Shown: positions 22,705 through 35,497 of the stretch, in pieces
Numbering within the stretch: the first letter of the stretch is position 1
How the letters are laid out: each line of letters starts with the position of its first letter
Source: [Clostridium] saccharolyticum WM1
GTDB taxonomy: Bacteria; Bacillota; Clostridia; Lachnospirales; Lachnospiraceae
Direction: 5' to 3'
NCBI RefSeq assembly: GCF_000144625.1
Contig: NC_014376.1
Location: 2,542,001-2,606,000 of the forward strand
DNA: 64,000 nt
The notes under the pieces: model-generated
What the model was told of the DNA's origin: nothing
Seen by the model: the letters and a program-made list of their open reading frames with translations, nothing else
The model's database searches: none
Made by a program: the position numbers and the translations under genes

Positions 22705-22872
22705 GGAGGTTTTCGTCCGCAGTGGTGCTGGTAAAACCGGAGGTTTTCGTCCGCAGTGGTACTGACAAAACCGGAGGTTTTCGTCCGCAGTGGTACTGGT
22801 AAAACCGGAGTTTTCGTCCGCAGTGGTGCTGGTAAAACCGGAGTTTTCGTCCGCAGTGGAGCTGACAAAACC
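22705..22872. repeat. Tandem array of five 33-34-bp units between cbiP and cbiC
   Basis: Units start at 22705, 22739, 22773, 22807 and 22840. Each reads GGAGGTTTTCGTCCGCAGTG (one G missing in the last two), then G-T/A-R-CTG-RY and AAAACC. In each unit the ends can pair (GGTTTT with AAAACC), so the transcript would be a string of similar hairpins. Variation is concentrated at a few positions. There are no spacers. The fifth unit continues into the 126-bp structured element, of which the unit looks like an amplified end. Short minus-strand open frames run through it in two frames, but they have no independent support. Confidence 0.92.
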
Positions 22873-22976
22873 GGAGGTTTTGCCAGCTCACGGGCATTCG
22901 CCCTATGAAATAGGCCATGAAAAGATTTTCTTATGTGCGGGCACAACGAAAATCTTCTCCTGTCCTATTTCTCACT
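22851..22976 (-). repeat. 126-bp structured repeat element, copy 1, directly after the cbiP stop
   Basis: Together with 33693-33818 this forms a pair of closely similar copies. Read on the minus strand, the ends pair (GCAGTG with CACTGC). Inside are GAAATAGG/CCTATTTC enclosing AGATTTTC/GAAAATCT, then the tetraloop hairpin GGGC-GAAT-GCCC, then a 14-bp stem GAGCTGGCAAAACC with a TCC loop. It begins within a few bases of the cbiP stop codon and so lies in the cbiP 3' leader region. It merges with the tandem array. Confidence 0.88.
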
Positions 22977-22978
22977 GC

Positions 22979-24502
22979 TCATTGCTTTCTGAACATTATC
23001 CCATAAATCTGGTCCATGTCAAGGCTGGTCCTTAATTGGGCGGCAAGACGGTCATATTGTTCTTCTTTGTATTCCTGATAGTTAAATCCGTCATCCAGTT
23101 CCATGGATATCCCCTTTTTTTCTGCAAGGGACTTTACAATGGTCATTGCAATCCCTTCTTTATCAAAGAAGCCGTGGATATAGGTGCCGTAAACATTTCC
23201 CCTTTGGCAGCCATCCATTTTTGCCAGGCGGGAGCCTGACTGGCTTTCCATAACATAGGCAAGAGGCGGTACGGATCTGGTGGTTTCTCCCATGTGGATC
23301 TCATAGCCTTCCACCTCCATGCCTGACAGTTCCTCAAAGATTCCTCCTACAGAGGAACAGGAGCCGGACACTCTTGTCCTGGTCTTTTCCTTTCCAAATA
23401 CCGTACGGACCGGCAGAAGTCCCATGCCCCGTACGGATGAGACGGCCGTTTCCGATTCCACCTGGAAGGGGTCAGATATGCTTTCTCCAAGCATCTGGAA
23501 GCCTCCGCAGATGCCGAATATGGGGATTTCCCTGGCTTTAAGCTTTAAGATGGCCGCCTCCAGGCCGCTTTCTCTCAGCCAAAGTAAGTCTTCCACAGTA
23601 TTCTTGCTTCCAGGTAAAATGGCCATATCCGGATTTCCCAGATCAGATACACGGTCCACATACCGCAGGCACACCCTTGGGATTGATGAAAAGACCTGGA
23701 AATCCGTGAAATTGGATATTCTGGGCATCCGGATGACAGCGATCTCAACAGCAGTCCGGTCCGTTCTGGCCGTTCCTGCCAGATGATTTCCAAGGCTGTC
23801 CTCATCTTCTAAATCCACATCCATATAGGGAACCACACCAGCCACCGGAATGGAAAGCTGCTTTTCGATCATGTCCAGCCCCGGTTCCAGAATGGTTTTG
23901 TCTCCTCGGAATTTGTTAACGATCAAACCTTTTATTAAGGCTTTTTCATCAGGCTCCAAAAGCATCACGGTTCCGTAAAGCTGTGCAAACACGCCTCCCC
24001 GGTCAATGTCGCCCACCAAAAGTACGGGAGCATCCGCCATTTTTGCCATTCCCATATTTACGATATCATCCTGCTTTAAATTGATCTCCGCCGGGCTGCC
24101 GGCTCCTTCTATGACGATGATATCGTATTCCTGGGAAAGCTTATGAAATGCCCGTTCAATCTCCGGCACCAATGTTTTCTTGTATGCAAAATACTCTCTG
24201 GCTAGCATATTTCCTATGGATATGCCATTTACAATTACCTGGGCCCCCATGTCATTGGTTGGCTTTAACAGGATGGGGTTCATGGCTGCCTCCGGCTTTA
24301 CTCCCGCCGCTTCCGCCTGGACCGCCTGGGCCCGTCCCATTTCCAGCCCTTCCTCCGTAATATAGGAATTCAAAGCCATATTCTGGGATTTGAAAGGGGC
24401 CACCCGGTAGCCATCCTGCTTGAAGATCCGGCATAATCCGGCCGCAATCAGGCTTTTTCCTGCATTGGACATGGTCCCCTGTATCATAATCGTCTTTGCC
24501 AT
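22979..24502 (-). CDS. cbiP: Cobyric acid synthase CbiP/CobQ
   Basis: This 507-residue cytoplasmic enzyme amidates four carboxylates of adenosyl-cobyrinic diamide using glutamine and ATP. The N-terminal ATP-binding domain starts [15 protein letters not shown]. The C-terminal class-I glutamine amidotransferase domain has nucleophile motif [12 protein letters not shown] and the catalytic histidine region [10 protein letters not shown]. The length matches the family. Its ATG lies 4 bases after the cobD stop. It is the fifth gene of the cobS operon, and its stop codon is followed at once by the 126-bp element. Confidence 0.96.
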
Positions 24503-24506
24503 TTGG

Positions 24507-25595
24507 TTATTTCCCTTCTGTCACTATGGATTTCAATATAGAAAGAAATGCTTCATTTTCCTTCCGCTGCTTGACGCAGATGCGGTAATAGGTATGGTCA
24601 AGCCCTCTGTAGTTGAAACAGGAACGTATGAGTACTTTCCTGTCCAGAAGCTGTTTATAAAGAAGCTTTTCCCGGATAAGGGCTTTTGGCCTTAAATCCT
24701 TAAAAAAGATATAATTGGCCATGGAGTCAAAAACCTGAAAACCAAGATCAGAAAGGGCTGATTTTAAATACTCCCGTTCACAGCTGATTAACTGTCTTGT
24801 TTTCTCCACGTATGATCTTTCTTTAAGAGCCGCCTCTCCTGCCGCCTGGGCTATGCTTGAGACGCTCCAGGGCTGGCGTATAAGATTCATTTGGTCCAAA
24901 ACCTCTTTTTGGCTGCATATTCCATAACCCAGGCGCAGCCCGGCCATGGCGTAGAGCTTTGTAAATGCTTTTAAAAGAAACACGTTCTCATAACCGCCGC
25001 GGCCTATGAGATCAAGAACCGAATACTGTTCCGGTTCCTGCAGGAATTCATTAAAGCATTCGTCCACCACGCAAAAGATCCCATGATCCCTGCAATATTC
25101 CAGAATCTCTGCCATGCCTTCCTTGTTCACAGCAAAGCCGGTTGGATTGTTGGGGTTGCATAAAAACAGCATCTGAAAATCCAGCCCGCTTTTTTCCAGC
25201 CAGTTTTTCAGTTCCTTTTCCCTTAGCTGAAACCCGTTTTCCTTCTTTAGGTCAAAATACGCCACGTTACAGGAGGACGCTTTAAGGGCCTGTTCGTATT
25301 CCAGAAAAGAAGGGGCAATCAGCAGAGCGTTTTTCGGTTTCAATGCCTGAACGATTTGAAAAATCAGATCCGCTGCCCCATTTCCGCAAATGAGGTACTC
25401 CGGAGGAATGCCGTGAAATCCGGAAAGCTCTTTGCGAAGTTTCATGGATCGGCTGTCCGGGTAACAGGCGCACTGATCTGCTGCTTTATAAACAGCCTCT
25501 TTAACTCCCCTGGGAAGTCCAAGGGGACTTAAATTGGCAGAATAGTCCATTATCACGTTATTCGTATAAATATCACCGCCATGCTGGTATTCCAT
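24507..25595 (-). CDS. cobD: Threonine-phosphate decarboxylase-type PLP aminotransferase CobD
   Basis: CobD makes (R)-1-amino-2-propanol phosphate, the linker between the corrin ring and the nucleotide loop. The 362-residue fold-type I PLP enzyme has HGGDIY and [10 protein letters not shown] near the N terminus. The substrate and cofactor motif CNPNNPTG is present, with the PLP lysine in [20 protein letters not shown] and a C-terminal arginine motif YYRICVK. A histidinol-phosphate aminotransferase role is possible from sequence alone, but its place between cbiB and cbiP favours CobD. ATG 25595 follows CAGGAGAAAAATGAT. Confidence 0.92.
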
Positions 25596-25624
25596 ATCAT
25601 TTTTCTCCTGGTCAATAATTGTGA

Positions 25625-26620
25625 TTAAAAAACTATAATAAACAGCAGAAATACGGGGAACAGCCCTATCAGATAGGTAACGGTCATTAAGTGATTTGCC
25701 CTTAGGATGTCCTTGTATTCTACCGGCCTAACCGGATCTCCAATGGTGGGCTTTTCATATAGCTTTCCAAAATAATAAGCATTTCCTGCAAGCTGGATCT
25801 GCAATGCTCCTGCACAGACCGCTTCTGTCTGGGCTGAATTGGGACTTTTGTGGTTGAACCGGTCCCTTTTAAACATCTTCAGGCCGTTCCTGCCGCTGTA
25901 TGGGTTTCCTTTTCTCTTGATTCCATACAAAAACTGACACACATACCCTGCTCCTATCATAAGGGCCGCAGATAACCGGGCCGGTATGAAATTACAGATA
26001 TCATCAAGCCTGGCCGCTGCCCGCCCAAACCAGAGGTACCGTTCATTTTTATAGCCTACCATGGAATCCATGGTATTTACCGCCTTATACAAAAACACTC
26101 CCACACCTCCAAAAAGAGCCATGCAGAGCAGAGGGGCTATGATTCCATCTGAAGTGTTTTCCGCCACGGTTTCCACCGCCGCCTTTGTAATGCCCTCTTC
26201 TGATAAGTCTTTTGTATCACGGCCTACAATCATGGATACGGCCGCTCTGGCCCCTTCCACATCTCCATTTAAGAACGCCTTATAGACCTTCATGCTTTCC
26301 TCCCGCAGGGAACGCCATGCCATCATCTGGCCGCACATCACGCTTTCTATGAGAAATCCGGCATAGGGGGAAAGATAATAAGCAGTCCATAGGATTGTCC
26401 CGGATAGGGCGCCTGTGACCAATAGCACAAGAATCACCAGCCATAAACCGGCTCTCCTTTCCCCTGTTTCTCCTTTAGGAAATCTTTTCCTGAGCTTTTT
26501 CTCCAGCCAGCTTATAAGCGAGCCCATCCCGCAGACCGGATGCCAAAGGAAACGGGGATCTCCAAAGCATAAATCCAGAAAGCATCCTGCCAGCACTGCT
26601 GCTAAATGTAGTCTTATCAT
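25625..26620 (-). CDS. cbiB: Adenosylcobinamide-phosphate synthase CbiB
   Basis: CbiB is an integral membrane enzyme that joins aminopropanol phosphate to adenosylcobyric acid. The 331-residue product has family motifs FGDPRFLWHPVCGMG, AVETVAENTSDGIIAPL and YKAVNTMDSMVGY, with several hydrophobic segments and a FNHKSPNSAQTEAV motif. ATG 26620 is chosen because AGGA lies 8 bases upstream and the family start pattern follows. The longer frame begins with a TTG inside the preceding gene. It belongs to the cobS operon. Confidence 0.95.
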   Translation of the reverse strand: MIRLHLAAVLAGCFLDLCFGDPRFLWHPVCGMGSLISWLEKKLRKRFPKGETGERRAGLWLVILVLLVTGALSGTILWTAYYLSPYAGFLIESVMCGQMMAWRSLREESMKVYKAFLNGDVEGARAAVSMIVGRDTKDLSEEGITKAAVETVAENTSDGIIAPLLCMALFGGVGVFLYKAVNTMDSMVGYKNERYLWFGRAAARLDDICNFIPARLSAALMIGAGYVCQFLYGIKRKGNPYSGRNGLKMFKRDRFNHKSPNSAQTEAVCAGALQIQLAGNAYYFGKLYEKPTIGDPVRPVEYKDILRANHLMTVTYLIGLFPVFLLFIIVF

Positions 26621-26642
26621 GTTCCATTTCCTGACCTTTTGT

Positions 26643-27065
26643 CTATTTAATCCGAGATGCAATTCCGCATACCATGCGGTAAACCTCTTCTGAGGTCCGG
26701 GCTAACCCTACAGACGCCCTTCCCGACACTTCTCTCCATTCCCTTTCTCCAGGATCCATGGGCACGATGCCGCAGCCCAGTTCATTGGAGGTAATAATAA
26801 CATGGGGGTTTTGCTGCCGGACCGCTGAAAGAAAGTCATCAACGCTTTTTCCTTCTTTTAAAAGCCGCCTTATATACTCATGAAGACCATGGATGATCCG
26901 GCATTTCATGGCAGCTTCAAAGCTGTCCCTGGAGCCTTCTGCAATCTCATACTCTTCCCTTTTTTCATTATAACACGCTGGTGAATCAAGGGGATACGCT
27001 TTCTTTGCCAGCTCCACGGCAAAGGCCAGCTTTCCCTGCCACGCTCCGCCTACAATCAATATCAT
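26643..27065 (-). CDS. Short, degenerate CobU-like protein (adenosylcobinamide kinase family)
   Basis: CobU phosphorylates adenosylcobinamide and transfers GMP to it. This 140-residue relative is much shorter than the usual 180-190. The P-loop reads GGAWQGKLA instead of GGSGSGKSE, so the Ser/Thr after the lysine is lost. The segment that carries the guanylylated histidine in full-length enzymes is not recognisable. The C-terminal half is well kept: IITSNELGCGIVPMD, REVSGRASVGLA and YRMVCGIASRIK. A canonical CobU is encoded at 59115-59693. This copy may be a pseudo-enzyme or retain only part of the activity. It sits between cobS and cbiB with a good ribosome-binding site (GAGGAAACC). Confidence 0.85.
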   Translation of the reverse strand: MILIVGGAWQGKLAFAVELAKKAYPLDSPACYNEKREEYEIAEGSRDSFEAAMKCRIIHGLHEYIRRLLKEGKSVDDFLSAVRQQNPHVIITSNELGCGIVPMDPGEREWREVSGRASVGLARTSEEVYRMVCGIASRIK

Positions 27066-27083
27066 GGTTTCCTCTCCCCTCTT

Positions 27084-27851
27084 TTACAGTGGCACCAGAT
27101 GGGATACAGCAGCCAGTCCTGCCACAAGGGCCAGCTCGCATATCTGAAGAAAATATCCCGCCAGATCGCCGGTAATCCCTCCAAACTCCCGCTTTGCCAT
27201 GGCATAATAATACCAATAAATCAGAAGAGAGATCAAAAGGGTTGCAACAGCAGGCATCATTCCGCCCACATACCAGATTCCCCACTCCGCCGCTGCCAGA
27301 TACAAAACCATCACAACAGCCACAGCCCTCTTTTGGGCGGCCCCGGAAAAGGAGGCTGCAAGCCCGCTTTCCTTTGCCATGGGAAATGTGACAACGGACA
27401 GGCCGCTTAAGGCCCTTGTAATTACAAAGGTTATGCAAAAGACCGGTACCATGGACGGTCGCATTTCCAAAAAAGCGGTCAGATAGAGAACCAGGTATAC
27501 ACCGCAGCCGATGATGGCAAACGCACCTGTATGAGGATCCTTTAATATCTCAAGCTTTTTCTTCCTGTCCTTATGAGAAGACCTGGCATCCACCACATCC
27601 AAAAATCCATCCATATGGATGCCTCCTGTAACCAGGATCGGAATTACCACAGGAAGAATCTGTCCGAAATGGCGAAAACCAAGAGCATTGCAGCCAAGAA
27701 CGACTGAAACGTTCAGCAGGCCGATGACTGCTCCGATAAGGGGAAAGAAACACATCACATATTTCATCCGCTCCTTTGTCCATTCCAGTTGGGGCATTGG
27801 AACACGGGAGTACATGGAAAACGCAATAACCAGGCTGCCAAAAAGATTCAT
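27084..27851 (-). CDS. cobS: Adenosylcobinamide-GDP ribazoletransferase (cobalamin synthase) CobS
   Basis: CobS is a membrane enzyme that joins GDP-cobinamide to alpha-ribazole in the last steps of cobalamin synthesis. The 255-residue product has the metal-binding motif GGIHMDGFLDVVDA (about residues 56-69), LKDPHTGAFAIIG and several hydrophobic helices. ATG 27851 is chosen for its strong AGGAGGTGGATT site; the upstream start at 27887 lacks one. It is the first gene of the first cob operon, and a good promoter lies about 50 bases upstream. Confidence 0.95.
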   Translation of the reverse strand: MNLFGSLVIAFSMYSRVPMPQLEWTKERMKYVMCFFPLIGAVIGLLNVSVVLGCNALGFRHFGQILPVVIPILVTGGIHMDGFLDVVDARSSHKDRKKKLEILKDPHTGAFAIIGCGVYLVLYLTAFLEMRPSMVPVFCITFVITRALSGLSVVTFPMAKESGLAASFSGAAQKRAVAVVMVLYLAAAEWGIWYVGGMMPAVATLLISLLIYWYYYAMAKREFGGITGDLAGYFLQICELALVAGLAAVSHLVPL

Positions 27852-27904
27852 AATCCACCTCCTCACGATGCTTAAACCAGGCAGCACGCCCGGTATTTAA
27901 AATT

Positions 27905-27933
27905 ATCATAACACAGATAATGGAAAATGTCAT
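27905..27933 (-). promoter_or_regulatory. Promoter of the first cobalamin operon (cobS)
   Basis: Minus-strand -35 ATGACA (27933-27928) and -10 TATGAT (27910-27905) are exactly 17 bases apart. The predicted leader before cobS is only about 47 bases, too short for a cobalamin riboswitch, and no B12-box-like sequence is visible. Confidence 0.7.
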
Positions 27934-27990
27934 TTCCATTCAGAAGTCCTTTCACCAGAAACAGCCAAAGAAACTGAGGCGTGTTCATAC

Positions 27991-28035
27991 AGAAATAGCC
28001 ATCCCCCGCGCAAAATCCGGGGAACGGCTATTTCT
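27991..28035. terminator. Strong palindrome after the isomerase gene
   Basis: AGAAATAGCC (27991-28000) pairs with GGCTATTTCT (28026-28035), with an inner CCCC/GGGG stem. The T-rich stretch after it is weak on both strands. It probably ends or stabilises the transcript of the 28096-33521 operon. Confidence 0.6.
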
Positions 28036-28095
28036 GCCTATCTGTGTCATTCTCTTTCAAATATTTTTTCAGCTTATCAATTCCAACCTTTGGTG

Positions 28096-29046
28096 TTATT
28101 CGATCTTAATCAGTTCCGGCAGTCTTTCACCCGGCAATACTCCGGTATGATGTTTTTCTCTTTCTTCCCGGTACATACCGGTAAGTTCCTCCCCGGCTTC
28201 ATATGCTTTCTTTAAGAACTTATCAACATTCTCATCGTTGCACGTTAATTCCAGAGTCAGGGGCAGCTCATACTCTGTCCGGGCAAGGGCTGACATGACC
28301 TCCTGCCAAATGATATTGCCTTCCCCCGGTACCTGGTGGAAATCCGCAGAACCGCTGTTGTCATGAATATGGACCGCATACAGGCGGTCCTGGTACCGAT
28401 GAATGATATCGGTCATTTTCCTGCCCCAAACCATGTTGGCATGCCCTGTGTCCAGGCAAAAACCAATGAACTGCGGCGGATACTTTTCAAGAAGTCTGTC
28501 CAGCTGATCCAGCTCATACCGTTCCGGTACATCAAATAAGTTCTCAATACAAATGCGTACTCCTTTTTGGATACAGTAAGGCTGCAGTTCATCGAAAGAC
28601 CGGTATACCTGCTGATAAAAATGCTCCTCTGTTTCCGGCTTCTCCCAAATTGTGAAATGAGGAACATACAGATGAAGAACGATCTCCTTTGCACCCATGC
28701 AACCTGCCAGATCGACTCGGTTTTTAATCAATTCCACCCCTGCTTTTCTGTTATACTCCACCTCAGAGGTATAATCCTTGCGGTAATGTCCGTCAATCAT
28801 GTTTGTATTCCGCCTGGAACCCTTGGAGGCATGAAGAGCTTTTGCTCTCAGTCCATATTGATCCATCCATTCTCTGATCTGCTGCATCTCATAGGAGGAA
28901 TACATATAATCCCCATCCCATTCAAAGCACCAGTGAATATGGGTAAAACCTGCCTGTGCAATTTTATATAATATTTCTCCGATTTTTTCAATTTGGGGAA
29001 ATTCTCCCGCAAAATCTGTTGCAATTGCCAGTTGTAAGGTGCTCAT
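28096..29046 (-). CDS. Sugar phosphate isomerase/epimerase family TIM-barrel protein (xylose-isomerase-like)
   Basis: This 316-residue cytoplasmic protein belongs to the AP-endonuclease-2 / xylose-isomerase-like superfamily. Likely metal ligands appear in order: ICIENLFDVPERYE (Glu), FCLDTGHANMVWG (Asp, His), VHIHDNSGSADFHQVPG (His) and LTLELTC (Glu). The substrate is unknown; keto-sugar isomerisation or epimerisation is usual in this family. It is the last gene of an operon with a CUT1 ABC transporter and an OPA-type exchanger, so it probably processes the imported sugar. The start has AAAGGAGAGAAT upstream. Confidence 0.85.
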   Translation of the reverse strand: MSTLQLAIATDFAGEFPQIEKIGEILYKIAQAGFTHIHWCFEWDGDYMYSSYEMQQIREWMDQYGLRAKALHASKGSRRNTNMIDGHYRKDYTSEVEYNRKAGVELIKNRVDLAGCMGAKEIVLHLYVPHFTIWEKPETEEHFYQQVYRSFDELQPYCIQKGVRICIENLFDVPERYELDQLDRLLEKYPPQFIGFCLDTGHANMVWGRKMTDIIHRYQDRLYAVHIHDNSGSADFHQVPGEGNIIWQEVMSALARTEYELPLTLELTCNDENVDKFLKKAYEAGEELTGMYREEREKHHTGVLPGERLPELIKIE

Positions 29047-29080
29047 ATTCTCTCCTTTCCATTGCCCATACGGCGCAAAA

Positions 29081-30334
29081 TCATCCGTTTCTTTCTTTTC
29101 TTACAAATAATAAGCAGAGAAGTCCTGCCAAAACCGTCACCGCCAGCCATACGTATATGGTTGCCTGCCAGCCCCGGTACTCTACCATAAGACCAATGGT
29201 AAAAGTCGAAATTGCCGTTCCTAAATATGCCATCGCATTGAGGAAGCCGGATACTCCGGACACACGTCCCTGCCGCAGGAAGCGCAATGGATAAATATTG
29301 ACCACCAGCGTATTCACTGCCATCATGGATGCCGTAATCATCGCCAGGAAACAGGCCGTTATGACCGGCGAAAGCCTTCCCAGCCTGCATAACAGAAGCA
29401 GCCCTGCCGTTGCCCATGCGAAAAAGAAACATACGGATAATCCGATCCTCTCTCCTGTCTTTTGGTAGACAAATCTGGCCAGATATGCCCCCGATAAATT
29501 GATGACCGGCAATATGGAGGTCAGCAAAACAGAAAAGGAAGCGGCGATTCCGAACGACTCACTGATATAGGTGGGAACCCAGGAAGTCACCCCATCCTTT
29601 AACATGCCATGCACCATAATGGGTATGAAAAGTGTCAAAATGCCGGAAGTTACCATTAGTTCTCCAAAAGAGGCAGGAACCTGTTCCTCCTGTCTGCAGG
29701 TTTCTTTTATTTCCTGTTCTTCCAAGGCGGTCTCGCCATGGCGGCAAATATCCCAAAAGCCCATACTCCACAAAAAAGAAGCGGCTGCCAGCAGGACTGC
29801 TGCCATAATGAATACTCCGGGCCAGGCTGTAACAGCCAGCACCCCCGCAGACAGTAAATAGGAAATCAGGGTCCCTACGATCTGAGATGAAACAATATTC
29901 ACACTGCAGTTTACCCTGTCTTCGCCATGAAGCATTTCCGCAAATATGCGGATAATTGGAGCCCATATCATTGCCTGAAAATATCCGTTGGCCCCCCAGG
30001 CCAAAGCCATCCATGAGGCGCTATGGCTTAAACCCATGGCAATATTGGAAAGCCCGGAGCAAAACAGCCCAACAAATATCATCCCCCTGGGATTAATCCT
30101 GTCACCCAGAAACCCGTTGATCATCTGCCCCGTTCCATAGGCAAAGAAATAAGCCATACTGATAAAGCCTGCCTGGGAAGCAGTCAGGATATGCTCTGAG
30201 ATGATTTCAGCCATAGCAGAAGAATAATTCAGCCTTCCAATATATGATACACAATATACAAGCCAGCATAACAGGAATAGTCTTTTGACATAGACTCTAT
30301 CCCTGATTCTACACAATACCTTTGCTTTCTTCAT
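29081..30334 (-). CDS. MFS transporter of the organophosphate:phosphate antiporter (GlpT/UhpT-like) family
   Basis: This 417-residue protein has 12 predicted membrane helices. OPA-like motifs are YIGRLNYSSAMAEI in helix 1, FFAYGTGQMINGFLGDRINPR after helix 2, and GVTSWVPTYISESFGIA later. The family exchanges phosphorylated sugars or glycerol phosphate for phosphate. It lies between the ABC permeases and the isomerase and is paralogous to the MFS gene at 44536-45804. ATG 30334 fits AAGGAG 5 bases upstream; the in-frame GTG at 30340 overlaps that region. Its presence next to an ABC importer suggests movement of a phosphorylated or anionic sugar; the substrate is unknown. Confidence 0.85.
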   Translation of the reverse strand: MKKAKVLCRIRDRVYVKRLFLLCWLVYCVSYIGRLNYSSAMAEIISEHILTASQAGFISMAYFFAYGTGQMINGFLGDRINPRGMIFVGLFCSGLSNIAMGLSHSASWMALAWGANGYFQAMIWAPIIRIFAEMLHGEDRVNCSVNIVSSQIVGTLISYLLSAGVLAVTAWPGVFIMAAVLLAAASFLWSMGFWDICRHGETALEEQEIKETCRQEEQVPASFGELMVTSGILTLFIPIMVHGMLKDGVTSWVPTYISESFGIAASFSVLLTSILPVINLSGAYLARFVYQKTGERIGLSVCFFFAWATAGLLLLCRLGRLSPVITACFLAMITASMMAVNTLVVNIYPLRFLRQGRVSGVSGFLNAMAYLGTAISTFTIGLMVEYRGWQATIYVWLAVTVLAGLLCLLFVRKERNG

Positions 30335-30360
30335 CTCCACTCCTTCATTCCTGTCAGCTT

Positions 30361-31191
30361 CTAGCCCTTTACCGCACCATTGGTCAAGCCGCCGATGATC
30401 TTTTTCTGCATGAATACATAAAATACCATAACCGGCAGCATGGACAGGAGGAAAGCCGCAAAAATCATGGGGTAATTAATGGCATGTGTCATCTTGAAGT
30501 TATACTGGAATAAGGTAAGGGTCCAAAAATCCGGTGACTTATTTAAGGTCAGCAGCGGCAGGAGGAAGTCATTCCAGTACCAAAGCCCGTTTTTGATCAA
30601 TACCGTCGCCGTCATGGGACTGAGAAGAGGAAATACGATATGGAGGTAAATGTTCCAGGTAGACGCACCGTCAATATAGGCCGCTTCTTCCAGTTCCATG
30701 GGAATGCCCTGTATAAAGGCCACATAGAGGAAAACACCTTCACAGACAGCGCTTGATATGTATACAATAATCAATCCGGGGATATTCAGCATATTCATCA
30801 CCGACATAACCTTAACTAAGGGAAGCATTTTTACCGTAAAAGGTACGAAAATGCCTGCAAGTAAAAAGAAATAGAGATACTTATAATATCTTTTTTCCCT
30901 CATGCTTCTGGCAATTGCATAGGAGACCATGGGAATCACGGCGATTGTTCCAATGGAAGCGAACAACGTAATTGCCAGGGTGTTTAGGACGGTCCTAGGA
31001 TAACCGGAATCCGTTATAATGGCATAAAAATTATTAAAATTAAAACGCTTTGGCAAAGCAAAAAAGCTCTGGCTTAATTCCTGAGGCGTTTTCATGGAAG
31101 TTATTAAGGTTAAATATACCGGATATGCGATCATAATAACACCTATGATCAGGAAGAGGTATAGTGCCGTACTTTTCAATTTATGACTCAT
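30361..31191 (-). CDS. CUT1 carbohydrate ABC transporter permease (MalG-like)
   Basis: This 276-residue inner-membrane permease has six predicted helices and the EAA loop EEAAYIDGASTWNIYLHIVFP that docks the ATPase. The C-terminal GGLTNGAVKG is typical of MalG/LacG-type permeases. Its start overlaps the MalF-like stop as ATGA. The ATPase is not encoded in the locus; CUT1 systems of this group usually share an MsmX-type ATPase from elsewhere. Confidence 0.93.
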   Translation of the reverse strand: MSHKLKSTALYLFLIIGVIMIAYPVYLTLITSMKTPQELSQSFFALPKRFNFNNFYAIITDSGYPRTVLNTLAITLFASIGTIAVIPMVSYAIARSMREKRYYKYLYFFLLAGIFVPFTVKMLPLVKVMSVMNMLNIPGLIIVYISSAVCEGVFLYVAFIQGIPMELEEAAYIDGASTWNIYLHIVFPLLSPMTATVLIKNGLWYWNDFLLPLLTLNKSPDFWTLTLFQYNFKMTHAINYPMIFAAFLLSMLPVMVFYVFMQKKIIGGLTNGAVKG

Positions 31192-32084
31192 CCCTCTTCC
31201 TCCTGATAAACACTTTTTTTATTACTGAACGTTATCTGTATAAATGAAATGGAACAGATTATTACGGTCACAACTACGGCTTCTGCGATGCCCAGGGAGA
31301 AATTAACCTCCTTAAAGCCATGGTTATAGATCAGCAGCGCCGTACTTTCCGTCGAACCGCCGGGTCCTCCGCCTGTTAAGGCAACAATATAATCATATAT
31401 TGTCAAACCATCCTTGATTACTAATACCATAACTACGGTAAGCACAGGAAGCAGGAAGGGAAAGGTAATAAATTTGAATACATCCCATTTTCCGGCACCG
31501 TCCAGGGCTGCTGATTCCACAAGCTCCTGAGGAACATTCTGTAAGCCTGCCATTAACAATACCGTGGGGATTGCAATCCCCTGCCATACATTGGTGATCA
31601 GGACCGCATAAATTGCTGTTTTAGAACCGGACAGCAGGCTTTTGCTCAGCCATTCCACATGAAACAGCTGCCCGATCTGGGGCAGAACCTGGAAAAACAC
31701 CTCATTAAAAATAAGACCTACCGTCAGCATGCTGACAACCGCCGGAAAAAAGTACGCTCCCCGAAAGAAATCCTTTGCCTTGATTTTGCTGTTTAAGATA
31801 AGAGCCATGATCAGGCTGAGACCAACGATGCTTACAACTAACAGAACCGTATATTTGAAGTTAAACCGAATTGCATTCTGAAAACGGCTGCTGAGCAGCA
31901 CCCTGACATAATTTTTCATACCAATAAACTGATAATCACTGGTCAATCCGTTCCAGTCGGTCAGGCTGTAATAAATCCCCGCACCGACCGGATAGATAAA
32001 AAAGAGAATGTATAACACCGTTGCCGGAACAGAAAAAGCAAACATCGCTATATTTCTTTCTGTTATCCTTTTTCTTTTCTTCAT
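31188..32084 (-). CDS. CUT1 carbohydrate ABC transporter permease (MalF-like)
   Basis: This 298-residue inner-membrane permease has the LFFIYPVGAGIYYSLTDWNG start typical of UgpA/LacF-type proteins. The EAA loop is ESAALDGAGKWDVFKFITFP, and GGPGGSTESTALLIYNHGF follows. It pairs with the permease that overlaps its stop. It follows the binding-protein gene after a terminator-like hairpin, so it is probably expressed at a lower level. ATG 32084 is preceded by AGAAGGATCT. Confidence 0.93.
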   Translation of the reverse strand: MKKRKRITERNIAMFAFSVPATVLYILFFIYPVGAGIYYSLTDWNGLTSDYQFIGMKNYVRVLLSSRFQNAIRFNFKYTVLLVVSIVGLSLIMALILNSKIKAKDFFRGAYFFPAVVSMLTVGLIFNEVFFQVLPQIGQLFHVEWLSKSLLSGSKTAIYAVLITNVWQGIAIPTVLLMAGLQNVPQELVESAALDGAGKWDVFKFITFPFLLPVLTVVMVLVIKDGLTIYDYIVALTGGGPGGSTESTALLIYNHGFKEVNFSLGIAEAVVVTVIICSISFIQITFSNKKSVYQEEEG

Positions 32085-32101
32085 AGATCCTTCTACCTTT
32101 C

Positions 32102-32142
32102 TAAAAATGGCTACTGTAAGTACCTCGTTGCAATAGCCATTT
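32102..32142 (-). terminator. Intrinsic terminator between binding-protein and permease genes
   Basis: Minus-strand AAATGGCTA (32142-32134) pairs with TAGCCATTT (32113-32105), followed by TTAG. Just upstream, ATAAATAAAATGGCT is present twice in tandem, giving an alternative 5' arm and hence a possible alternative fold. Confidence 0.6.
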
Positions 32143-32207
32143 TATTTATAGCCATTTTATTTATGGCAGGCAGCCGCCTGACGGTACGGCTCCCCTATTG
32201 TCTTCTG

Positions 32208-33521
32208 TTATTGGGCTCCATATTTTTCTTTACAGATCCGATCCGTTTCTTTCATAAAATTATCCGTATTCTTATCTGAAATGAGCTTCTGCACATACAC
32301 CGACCATTCAGAGCGCCAGCCTGACGGCCAGAAATTGACCATGGTCAGGAAGGTATTTCCGCTGTCAATGACTTCCTTGATGCCCTTTAAGGGTTCAATA
32401 TGATAATTTACACCATCAATTACCGGAGGGGTTCCTTCTTCATCAGCTACCATCTGATAGATCTCTGGTCTTGATAAAAATTCAATGAAGGCTTTTGCCT
32501 CTTCCTGATGAGGCGTTTTGCTGGAAATGCCGTACGCAATATCCACGTTAATGGGAATCTTATAATCATCGCTTACAGGACTGGGGTAAGGAATTAAGGT
32601 AAAGTCCAATTCAGGGTTGTTTTGCTGGATCACCATATATTTGGCCGTTATCGCAACAAACATCGGAGTCTTCCCGTTGGCAAAATCAGCAACACACTGC
32701 TCAATGCCATAAGACAGGGTGTCTCCTGCATATTCCCTGGTTTTAAGCAATGCCTGTGCAAGTTCTCTGAAGTATGGCTTATCCCCATCGCCAAAGGAAG
32801 CTTCGGTGGTCCCTACATTCTCTGTGTCTATGTAAACATCATTTTTAATAATGCCGACGATTCGCTCTCCCTCCTGCGCCAAATAGCCCGGATCTTTATC
32901 TACAAAGGTAAAGGGCGTAATTCCTTTTGCCTGGAAAGCTTCACATACCTCCATCAATTCACTCCAGGTAGTTGGCAATTCCAGACCAGCTTCTTTATAT
33001 AAGGTCCTGTTGCAATAAATTCCAAATGAATTCATAGCAAAAGGCATAGCATAGATCTTACCGTTCCAGGTAGAAAATTCCAGAGCGCTGTCCGACGCTC
33101 TGTGAAGCCACTCTTCATTGGTCAGCTCTGTATATACTCCATCATCCATCATGGTATGATAGGCTGTTTCAGCCGGATATACGGACATGATATCAGGAAC
33201 ATCCCCGGTTGACACCCTGGTGAACAACACCGTCTCCGCATCCGCAGGTGCTGTCTGTTTTATTACCACATTGGGATTCTCCTCTTCAAACCTTTCTATT
33301 ACTTTATTAAAAACCGCTTCCCCTTCCACCTTGCAATTAAAAAATTCCAGCTCTACTTTCCCATCGGCAGAAGCCCCCTTCCCATTTCCCCCATTGGAAC
33401 CGGCAGCTCCTTTTGTTTCCATACTGTTTTGCTCAGCCGTCTGAGCAGCCAGACCACAGCCTGCTAAGGATAATGCTAAAAGTGTAATTCCCAACCCAAC
33501 CCCCAAAACTTTCTTTTTCAT
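32208..33521 (-). CDS. CUT1 extracellular sugar-binding lipoprotein
   Basis: This 437-residue exported protein has a signal peptide with lipobox SLAGCG. A Gly/Ser/Asn-rich linker follows, then a family-1 binding-protein core (VELEFFNCKVEGEAVFNKVI, GDVPDIMSVYPAE, LYKEAGLELPTTWSELMEV). ATG 33521 is used because AGGAGGTTTCTT lies immediately upstream; the longer frame would begin with TTG inside that site. It supplies the two CUT1 permeases downstream. The divergent kinase/regulator pair at 33860-37053 is its probable controller. Confidence 0.93.
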   Translation of the reverse strand: MKKKVLGVGLGITLLALSLAGCGLAAQTAEQNSMETKGAAGSNGGNGKGASADGKVELEFFNCKVEGEAVFNKVIERFEEENPNVVIKQTAPADAETVLFTRVSTGDVPDIMSVYPAETAYHTMMDDGVYTELTNEEWLHRASDSALEFSTWNGKIYAMPFAMNSFGIYCNRTLYKEAGLELPTTWSELMEVCEAFQAKGITPFTFVDKDPGYLAQEGERIVGIIKNDVYIDTENVGTTEASFGDGDKPYFRELAQALLKTREYAGDTLSYGIEQCVADFANGKTPMFVAITAKYMVIQQNNPELDFTLIPYPSPVSDDYKIPINVDIAYGISSKTPHQEEAKAFIEFLSRPEIYQMVADEEGTPPVIDGVNYHIEPLKGIKEVIDSGNTFLTMVNFWPSGWRSEWSVYVQKLISDKNTDNFMKETDRICKEKYGAQ

Positions 33522-33565
33522 AAGAAACCTCCTTTTCAATTACTGGTGTTCTAGTTCGTATGCTC

Positions 33566-33571
33566 ATTATA
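33566..33571 (-). promoter_or_regulatory. Probable -10 of the binding-protein operon
   Basis: Minus-strand TATAAT (33571-33566) is about 45 bases upstream of the start at 33521, with no good -35. This fits activator control. A CAAGCGTTTGG stretch near the -35 position resembles half of a catabolite site but is too poor to call. Confidence 0.4.
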
Positions 33572-33667
33572 AGCGATTCCTGCCCCAAACGCTTGCCATA
33601 TCTTCTGATCTTATTGCCATTTCTTCACATTCTTTAAAGTGTGATCGTTTCCCCTGCTTTTGTATGG

Positions 33668-33673
33668 TATAAT
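33668..33673 (+). promoter_or_regulatory. Extended -10 promoter of the plus-strand kinase gene
   Basis: TGGTATAAT is an extended -10 with no strong -35. Initiation near 33680 would give a leader of about 180 bases that contains the whole 126-bp structured element, ahead of the kinase start at 33860. Confidence 0.55.
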
Positions 33674-33692
33674 GTCCACGAAAGCAACGGGT

Positions 33693-33818
33693 AGTGCGAA
33701 ACGGGACAGAAGAAGATTTTCGTTGTGCCCGCACATAAGAAAATCTTATCATGGCCTGTTTCATAGGGCGAATGCCCTGAGCTGGTAAAACCTCCGGTTT
33801 TACCAGCTCGCACTGCGG
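33693..33818 (+). repeat. 126-bp structured repeat element, copy 2, in the kinase leader
   Basis: It is the inverted counterpart of 22851-22976, roughly 85-90 percent identical by eye. Read on the plus strand, GTAGTGCG pairs with CGCACTGC at the ends. GAAACGGG pairs with CCTGTTTC, AGATTTTC with GAAAATCT, and GAGCTGGTAAAACC with its complement around a TCC loop. Several differences from copy 1 preserve pairing. The rest of the 338-base divergent gap holds the two promoters and nothing else I can identify. Confidence 0.88.
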
Positions 33819-33859
33819 CCCCCTCAGAATACCAATCAAAGAAAGGACCCTCCACCATA

Positions 33860-35497
33860 ATGAAAAATTCAGACTTTCACCTTTCTTCCCCCAAAATGAA
33901 CAGGCAGCTGAGGCTGATGCTCATTCTGGAAACCATCGTACTCCTGGGTGCATACATCATGATCACCGGCACGTACCAAAATCTGGAGCGGCATAAGACT
34001 GATGAGGCGATAAGGCAGCTGAACGGTAACTTAATGACCAACATCCAGCATACCGCCAATGCCCTGGACACACTCTCCAAATCCTTAATCAGCAGTGATA
34101 CCTACGAGGTGTCCCCCTCTCTATGGAGCTATTTAAAATCCCCTGCCAGGCAAAAAGAAAATCCAGGGAGGGTGGATGGATTGTTCATTGAGAAATATTA
34201 TCAGCTGACCATCTTATTCCCCCAGTTAAATTGCCTCTTCCTTTACCGTCCGGAAGGGAATTTAATGACCTTTAAATACAACGACCAAAAATACCACCTT
34301 TTAAAGGAATTACCTGAAAGCAACTGGGTCACCGTCTTAAAAGAAAATCGGGGGGCCTTATCCTTTGTCACCCAAAAAGAAGCAGAGGACTTAGGATACC
34401 AGGTGAACAACCAACTGTTATTTGCCGGACGGGTGTTAAATAATATCAGCGCTTCCAAACCGGTTGCCATCATTTTAGCCGGCATTAACATTTCTGATCT
34501 CCAGTACGATTTTAAATGCAATAAATTATTTGATTCCCAGCAGTTTGCCTGCTTTGATATCAACAAAAAGCTGTTATTTTCTTCTGATGGGTTTGAAGCT
34601 ATTCCCTGGGAGGATATACAATCACCAAAAGCCGGAGATCCATATGCCTATTACTTGATTTCCAACGACAATCATACATTATTCAGCGTCATCGCCACGG
34701 ATAAAAAAGATATCACCCAGTCCTCATCCTTCTTGCGCCCTGTTTTCCTGGTGATCATCCTGGTCATTTTCCTGTCCAATCTGCTGCTGTCCTGGATGAT
34801 CACCAAGAGAGTCATAAAATCCTACGGTGAAATGACAAAGCAGGTATATCAGAAAAGCCTGGCAGAAAAGGATCTAAATCTGCAGATGCTGCGCTCTCAG
34901 ATCAATCCTCATTTTTTATACAATACCCTGGACCGGATGCGGATGGCTTCTCTCAACGCCAACTACCCATATCTGGCAACCATGTGCGAACTGCTGGCAA
35001 AGATTCTCCGCTTTGGCGTCTCTGAGTCTAATAAGCTGGTGACCGTAGAAGAAGAACATGCTCATTTGGAGGAATACATCCGTTTAATCCGTATAAGCTA
35101 CCCCAATGTGTCCATCAGCACCAGCCTGGATCCTGAAATTCTCTCCTTCCGGATGCTGAAACTGCTGCTGCAGCCTTTGGTGGAAAACAGCATTAATCAC
35201 GGAATTATTGATGATGCTGCCAATGGCTCCATACAAATATGGGGATATGAAAAAGACAGCAATTTGATCTTCACCGTTTCTGACAATGGAAACGGAATGG
35301 ATGAAGAACACCTGGCCCTGCTGCGGGATTACTTAGAAGACAAGAATACCGCGTTTCACAGCATCGGATTAAAGAATATCAAAAAAAGAATACAGCTCTA
35401 TTACGGAAAAGAGTATGATTTATTCATTGACAGCCGGCTTCATCAGGGCACAACCGTGACCATTAAAATTCCGGTTATCAAAGAGTCAATTGTTTGA
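33860..35497 (+). CDS. LytS/YesM-type sensor histidine kinase
   Basis: This 545-residue membrane kinase has TM helices near residues 17-36 and 290-312 around an extracellular sensor domain. The His_kinase motif is INPHFLYNTLDRM. The ATPase domain has LQPLVENSINHG, DNGNGMD, SIGLKNIKKRI and HQGTTVTIKIP. It is followed 23 bases later by an AraC-type regulator and is divergent from the CUT1 operon. It most likely senses that sugar. Its ATG is preceded by AAGGA at a rather long spacing of about 12 bases, and its leader contains the 126-bp element. Confidence 0.92.
   Translation: MKNSDFHLSSPKMNRQLRLMLILETIVLLGAYIMITGTYQNLERHKTDEAIRQLNGNLMTNIQHTANALDTLSKSLISSDTYEVSPSLWSYLKSPARQKENPGRVDGLFIEKYYQLTILFPQLNCLFLYRPEGNLMTFKYNDQKYHLLKELPESNWVTVLKENRGALSFVTQKEAEDLGYQVNNQLLFAGRVLNNISASKPVAIILAGINISDLQYDFKCNKLFDSQQFACFDINKKLLFSSDGFEAIPWEDIQSPKAGDPYAYYLISNDNHTLFSVIATDKKDITQSSSFLRPVFLVIILVIFLSNLLLSWMITKRVIKSYGEMTKQVYQKSLAEKDLNLQMLRSQINPHFLYNTLDRMRMASLNANYPYLATMCELLAKILRFGVSESNKLVTVEEEHAHLEEYIRLIRISYPNVSISTSLDPEILSFRMLKLLLQPLVENSINHGIIDDAANGSIQIWGYEKDSNLIFTVSDNGNGMDEEHLALLRDYLEDKNTAFHSIGLKNIKKRIQLYYGKEYDLFIDSRLHQGTTVTIKIPVIKESIV

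Follow-up and report, generated by a model that had tools for sequence, protein, structure and literature searches.

A structured repeat of about 146 bp, probably mobile, placed in sense at promoters and stop codons in Lacrimispora and other Lachnospiraceae

We analysed a 64,000-nucleotide stretch of the [Clostridium] saccharolyticum WM1 genome (the window, taken as a whole; the genome is a single contig of 4,662,871 bases, and the host genus was taken as Lacrimispora) that holds two copies of a structured repeat, one at the end of cbiP (copy 1, 22848-22993, minus strand) and one in front of a sensor kinase gene (copy 2, 33676-33821, plus strand; the family alignment gives both full extents). 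With modest confidence, we interpret the repeat, about 146 bp long, as a mobile element that is non-autonomous and moves as a unit defined by its ends and its fold. The initial annotation of the window had described a 126-bp element with copies that looked 85-90 percent alike by eye. Both copies are where it placed them and are 91% identical over 126 bp (mean column identity of the pairwise alignment, 92%). The 126 bp are a correct core of a longer unit: aligning 15 copies from the same genome extends the element to about 146 bp, through a conserved leader of about 15-17 nt on the 5' side and a few bases on the 3' side. The order within the unit is the leader (commonly YCACGAAAGCAATGA), the 5' strand of helix P1, P2 with P3 at its tip, P4, P5, the 3' strand of P1 and GGACT.

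To judge by sequence comparison, the element is a mobile repeat, because the orthologous sites at cbiP, the sensor kinase gene, groEL and trpS are empty in relatives; of the two explanations that the initial annotation had considered, this supports the mobile repeat. Of 23 relatives with cbiP, 6 have the element at the end of the gene and 17 have an empty site. In the nearest empty genome the sequence is ATCTATGGGATAATG|GGCATAAAGG, and filled ones continue as ATCTATGGGATAATG|TTCACGAAAGC; the insertion supplants the last codons and supplies a new stop. Behind groEL (named from its C-terminal sequence, with no model used), 13 relatives comprise 5 filled sites, 7 empty sites and one remnant, in genome G008; this remnant (L252) consists of the leader and the first P1 strand only, as if the copy had been deleted internally. 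The sensor kinase gene occurs in 2 of 13 relatives searched, both with the native TATAAT promoter and without the element. At trpS, 3 of 10 genomes are filled, our own included, and the 7 empty ones carry TTGACA and TACAAT, then a leader and a ribosome-binding site. The -10 box of trpS (L363-L372) reads TACAAT in the seven element-free genomes and TATAAT before the element in the filled ones. Comparing empty with filled sites at cbiP, the kinase gene and trpS, we saw no target duplication by eye. Similar flanks of some copies had suggested TATGGTATAAT as a duplicated target, a candidate without support at trpS, where the empty genomes already have a GATAATAC sequence behind the site. When the flanks of copies in our own genome were matched with those of copies fetched from four relatives (the 19-20 best stretches per relative), the copies fell into 26 shared loci. 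The cbiP copy is present in all five species compared and the kinase copy in our own genome only; many copies are old.

The initial annotation had proposed a covariance model as a means of finding further copies, and such a model, built from 14 copies of our own genome with the odd trpS copy omitted, does find dispersed copies both there and in other Lachnospiraceae. At 78 bits or more it matches 16 places in our own genome, namely the 14 training copies, the omitted trpS copy and one new copy; weaker and antisense partial matches are also listed there. Matches occur in 41 of 99 relatives' genomes: 24 of 25 in the genus (our own included), 15 of 36 others of the family and 2 of 38 others of the order. 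A family-wide draw gave matches (E up to 1e-4) in 129 of 396 Lachnospiraceae genomes and in 118 of 317 genera, both counts being lower bounds since strict filters were used. Copy number is uneven within the genus, from 26-40 matches in six relatives (antisense partial hits counted) through 6 in G001 to 0-3 in the other 17. Our own genome also has a tandem array of nine units of about 140 bp, each an element, at 4100128-4101392 (L041, L055-L062); its first unit is one of the 16 places and eight units follow. The orthologous array locus in G009 (L187) has about three units, so the number of units differs between species.

The position of the copies relative to genes follows a sharp rule. With simple calls of open reading frames (ORFs), 66 of 144 copies begin at the stop codon of the gene before them (element start within -40 to +10 of the stop, a cut set after the distances had been seen), and 66 of 66 are in sense. 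A -10 word (at most one mismatch, within 14 bases) precedes 67 of the remaining 78, at exactly -8 in 56 (background 6.5%). When 63 loci are taken as independent, 24 lie at a stop codon, again all in sense, and 32 of the other 39 have a -10 word just before the element, mostly at one fixed distance; these 32 include 24 with an extended -10 and 13 with a -35 word (at most two mismatches; background 11%). The seven loci lacking a -10 word are L052, L093, L131, L138, L142, L149 and L162, of which L131 and L142 stand, by eye, behind terminator-like T runs. Stop codons frequently fall inside the element's leader. The downstream gene is co-directional in 50 of 62 loci with a call, and none of 12 convergent downstream genes falls within -40 to +10 of the element's end. 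The transcript-sense placement first noticed in two copies is thus confirmed, and is stronger than they could reveal.

RNA folding gives -68.0 and -68.8 kcal/mol for copies 1 and 2 (z = -8.35 and -8.62; 0 of 200 shuffles as good), and every helix named in the initial annotation is present in the folds. The reverse strands of both copies also fold well (z = -8.05 and -6.19), so folding by itself does not name the strand. In an alignment of one copy from each of 62 loci, which was fitted to the covariance model and is therefore biased towards the structure, 48 of 52 base pairs have double-sided changes; the compensatory differences seen between the first two copies hold well beyond them. Double-change cells number 685, against a mean of 182 after shuffling and at most 135 with slid partners, standard pairs fill 92.7% of cells (70.4% shuffled, at most 45.7% with slid partners), and the covariation score is 0.571 vs 0.160. 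Best conserved in this alignment are the leader, the P1 5' strand, the apical module GTtGTGCtYGCACRtAAg, ATAGGGCGAAtGCCCG and the GCACtGC end, whereas the sequences of P2 and P5 vary; the consensus start of the element is nCRCGnaaGCAATGAGC.

Template switching in hairpins can yield compensatory changes without selection on RNA. At 14 orthologous loci, for which 3-5 species have a single copy apiece (loci with several copies per species were dropped), two or more Watson-Crick states occur at 97 of 728 pair positions, against 5-11 with slid partners and a mean of 7.0 (maximum 22 in 300 trials) with random partners. Identity between orthologues is 87% for the element, 85% for the 5' flank, 65% for the 60-nt 3' flank and 49% for the shuffled flank; relative to the 5' flank, which is coding or promoter sequence, the element is not clearly better conserved (above it in 55 of 102 species pairs). 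In Lacrimispora, G-U and A-C intermediates are at parity (68:69 cells; 50:39 events, p = 0.29; 53:50 on 34 independent loci), with a lean towards G-U in P2 alone (29:17, p = 0.10). The 6S RNA of 16 genomes of the genus, used as a control, gives 94:2 cells but only 7:2 events, and the contrast with the element is significant for cells and not for events. A scan of 144 copies brought out two hairpin exchanges: in L176 the apex is inverted as a perfect reverse-complement match while its orthologues are upright, and in L179 the asymmetric loop has become a perfect palindrome while its orthologue L156 is unchanged. Five more flagged copies look degraded or diverged.

Given the parity in Lacrimispora and the two hairpin exchanges, compensatory change alone is no proof of RNA selection. 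DNA-level hairpin exchange seems to contribute to keeping the hairpin shape, alongside any RNA function, and the retention of the asymmetric loop in most copies despite exchange suggests that something recognises this loop. The selection on RNA structure envisaged in the initial annotation is accordingly not secured: the pairing kept at the 14 loci and the intermediates of other genera (see below) speak for it, the parity in Lacrimispora and the exchanges against it. This carries a caution for RNA discovery, as strong covariation in a multi-copy hairpin element may partly reflect DNA template switching, a contribution that can be exposed by inverted hairpin tips and by how G-U intermediates compare in number with A-C.

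How might such an element move? An enzyme acting in trans would recognise the folded single DNA strand, and insertion would occur beside a short T-ending target in non-template DNA that transcription has exposed as a single strand. Insertion of this kind would explain the orientation, the preference for -10 boxes and the absence of a visible duplication. Once inserted, the element would form the leading part of an untranslated stretch of RNA; given the usual spacing between a -10 box and the start point, promoter copies should have their transcription start near element position 5-6. The fold would be kept by template switching between the two arms of a hairpin, with some purifying selection. 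The effect on the host, if any, would most likely be local, the transcript being protected at its 5' end or just behind its stop codon, and a role in cis in transcript stability or termination is perhaps the natural companion hypothesis.

Several results weigh against this proposal. No mobilising enzyme was found; among the 19 Y1_Tnp matches in the genome, ends were compared for the multi-copy IS200-like one. The stop-codon targets are degenerate, 18 of 24 having no -10-like word, so a target rule alone does not explain the placement. Because of these two points, an additional selection may be needed, one that favours transcription of the element as the first untranslated segment. Moreover, the element is better conserved than its 3' flank in 83 of 102 species pairs, which would not be so after passive insertion, and G-U intermediates exceed A-C both at 28 loci of other genera (34:15) and in the mixed alignment A5 (131:80), as RNA selection would give.

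The conservation above the 3' flank and the excess of G-U in other genera are equally what one would expect of an RNA element that acts in cis and has been domesticated from a mobile repeat, and which would protect transcripts from nucleases or Rho, or bind a protein through its apical module. Sense placement at transcript starts and stop codons, the pairing kept at orthologous loci, and the conserved loops with covarying helices point the same way. Such a role would be compatible with a mobile origin, and we consider it a real possibility, if on balance an unlikely one. It fits poorly with the equality of G-U and A-C in Lacrimispora when set against 6S RNA (94:2 by cells, the 7:2 events being too few), with the tolerance of inverted and symmetrised tips, with the loss of the groEL copy in G008 and with the copies behind terminator-like T runs (L131, L142). 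If it were true, dozens of loci, housekeeping genes included, would have had the ends of their transcripts rewired by mobile DNA.

The -10 boxes at a fixed offset, many of them extended or accompanied by a -35 word, could also mark paralogous small RNAs, with promoters of their own or cut from 3' untranslated regions. This seems improbable, as trpS and the kinase gene have these promoters natively in genomes that lack the element, inspection by eye shows no T run of an intrinsic terminator at the element's 3' end, and downstream genes are mostly co-directional, as they would be behind leaders. We give still less credence to a DNA-level site, a cruciform or a protein-binding palindrome, that would serve the chromosome or its supercoiling and have no RNA role: strand-symmetric intermediates in Lacrimispora, folding of both strands and hairpin exchanges would suit it, but 24 of 24 stop-codon loci in sense are not expected of a strand-neutral site. 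A riboswitch class, for which the multi-helix junction with conserved loops and the 39 of 63 loci away from a stop codon might argue, was rejected on context as highly improbable, since 24 of 63 loci come after a gene and not, with a promoter, before one, the flanking genes are mixed and have no pathway in common, genomes of a single genus range from 0 to about 40 matches, and there is no Rfam match.

With respect to known RNA families, Rfam 15 gave no match at gathering score in the window or in 20 copy-bearing loci, only three chance-level matches to snoRNAs or microRNAs appearing at E up to 10; the statement in the initial annotation that this is not a recognised riboswitch holds against that database. 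The accessible main text of the open-access papers searched, PMC8040213, PMC11109978 and PMC8632094 among them, gave no description of the repeat.

Structured mobile repeats are already known; what is new here is the placement rule, the multi-helix fold and a shared module. Repetitive extragenic palindromic (REP) sequences are hairpin DNA in many copies outside genes, for which mobilisation in trans by a Y1-type enzyme, RAYT (TnpA-REP), has been proposed (PMC3116915, PMC2817692, PMC8266576), and are palindromes of 20-40 bp, mostly in GTAG- or CGTC-tagged families (PMC3733652). Our element resembles REP/BIME and REPIN sequences, so described, in being multi-copy extragenic hairpin DNA, and differs from REPs and REPINs in its unit of about 146 bp, its five helices and its sense placement at transcript starts and stop codons, and in lacking a GTAG- or CGTC-type palindrome. 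Like miniature inverted-repeat transposable elements (MITEs) it is short, non-autonomous and multi-copy; unlike them it has no inverted repeat at its very ends, the P1 strands being internal, and no visible target duplication, so it does not qualify as one.

Elements of the IS200/IS605 type insert in a fixed orientation beside a short target, without duplication. Their subterminal secondary structures are recognised on single-stranded DNA, according to the accessible portion of PMC6006769. A target of this type agrees with the -10 word at -8 in 56 of 78 non-stop copies and not with the degenerate stop-codon targets, and our element, unlike IS200/IS605, has no coding gene. The IS200-like element of the same genome was rejected as mobiliser, because its ends, examined in seven near-identical copies, are unlike those of the repeat; it is also the sole element in our comparison with transposon ends, which gave no match, and a match, according to the initial annotation, would have counted against its proposal. 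This IS200-like element is 784 bp long (L031-L038, several near-identical copies), and some of its left flanks resemble terminator hairpins with T runs. The motif MRSC-65-2, which the accessible text of PMC11109978 describes as a mobile or repeat candidate of diverse phyla with a UYCCGG repeat, is likewise structured, multi-copy and possibly active as DNA; our element, in a search confined to the order, was found in Lachnospiraceae and in 2 of 38 other genomes, and the comparison with that paper covers this one motif.

Other sources for the element were also considered. An autonomous relative, in which the same ends would enclose a gene, was sought among 144 distinct leader hits in 373 sequences, 16 of which have no apical motif as written: 14 are by eye diverged, decayed or tip-inverted, and the other two are the groEL remnant, L252, and an apparent chance hit, L298. 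In L054 and L142, the nearest 3'-end motif is 538 and 903 bases away. A phage origin was dismissed as CGTTGTGCYYGCACATAAG had no match in viral contigs. The idea that the family descends from one single-copy RNA in front of a dnaD-like gene found no support: of 43 loci compared, just the one in our own genome matched the murC, dnaD and dnaI references.

The exact apical 21-mer is found in 77 stretches of named genomes, and in 55 of them it lies inside another repeat, which begins GTTACTATTCAC (L269, L277, L320 and 52 more, L262-L338). One apical module is therefore common to two families with different ends. Three of the 55 are complete elements of 95-97 bp with inverted ends and identical 8-bp duplications, MITEs by their sequence. 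In this second family, 13 of 55 abut the preceding gene, 13 of 13 in sense; in 34 of the other 40 that have an upstream gene, this gene lies on the opposite strand. Rfam gave no match to the second repeat in 17 loci. One might speculate, very tentatively, that the first family is a bacterial counterpart of SINEs (short interspersed nuclear elements), a fold-dependent element that would settle in sense at the first untranslated base and spread an RNA module into a genus-wide post-transcriptional network, with the apical motif common to two repeat families and DNA hairpin exchange repairing the fold; taken jointly, we regard these propositions as doubtful. What can be offered is a repeat family without an Rfam entry, present in over a third of the Lachnospiraceae genera sampled and with a placement rule that can be tested.

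Table 1. Positions in the window of the two copies, their parts and the adjoining features
Feature	Position	Strand	Basis
Copy 1, 3' end of cbiP	22848..22993	-	covariance model match, 159.5 bits; member of training set
Copy 2, between promoter and sensor kinase gene	33676..33821	+	covariance model match, 138.8 bits; member of training set
GATAAT just before copy 1, within cbiP coding sequence and present in nearest empty site	22995..23000	-	sequence; G001 empty site
-10 box TATAAT, fixed offset -8 from copy 2, native at empty site in two relatives	33668..33673	+	sequence, offset statistics, empty sites
Copy 2, P1 5' strand GTAGTGC	33691..33697	+	sequence, alignment
Copy 2, helix P2 with P3 at its tip	33698..33762	+	folding, alignment
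Copy 2, conserved apical module CGTTGTGCCCGCACATAAG	33721..33739	+	sequence, conservation
Copy 2, helix P4 GGGC-GAAT-GCCC	33766..33777	+	sequence, alignment
Copy 2, variable hairpin P5	33779..33809	+	sequence, folding
Copy 2, P1 3' strand GCACTGC	33810..33816	+	sequence, alignment
Copy 1, P1 5' strand GCAGTG	22973..22978	-	sequence, folding
Copy 1, helix P2 with P3 at its tip (apical module 22930-22948)	22907..22971	-	sequence, folding
Copy 1, helix P4	22892..22903	-	sequence, folding
Copy 1, variable hairpin P5	22859..22889	-	sequence, folding
Copy 1, P1 3' strand CACTGC	22853..22858	-	sequence, folding
cbiP, stop codon inside leader of copy 1	22979..24502	-	ORF; Pfam GATase_3 and CbiA
Sensor histidine kinase gene, behind copy 2	33860..35497	+	ORF; Pfam His_kinase and HATPase_c
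Tandem array, 34-bp unit x 5.3, corresponding to 3' part of copy 1 (part of P5, P1 3' strand, tail)	22705..22881	.	Tandem Repeats Finder

The genes next to copies elsewhere, surveyed by scanning 30 proteins, have no common pathway. They include those for transketolase, pyruvate kinase, trigger factor with xpt, ribosomal L17, a MetH-like protein with trpS, a mannitol PTS, and MurD with an FtsW/SpoVE-like protein; choline-binding-like and subtilase-like neighbours scored below the curated cut-offs. Within the window, the 34-bp tandem array sits between cbiP and cbiC.

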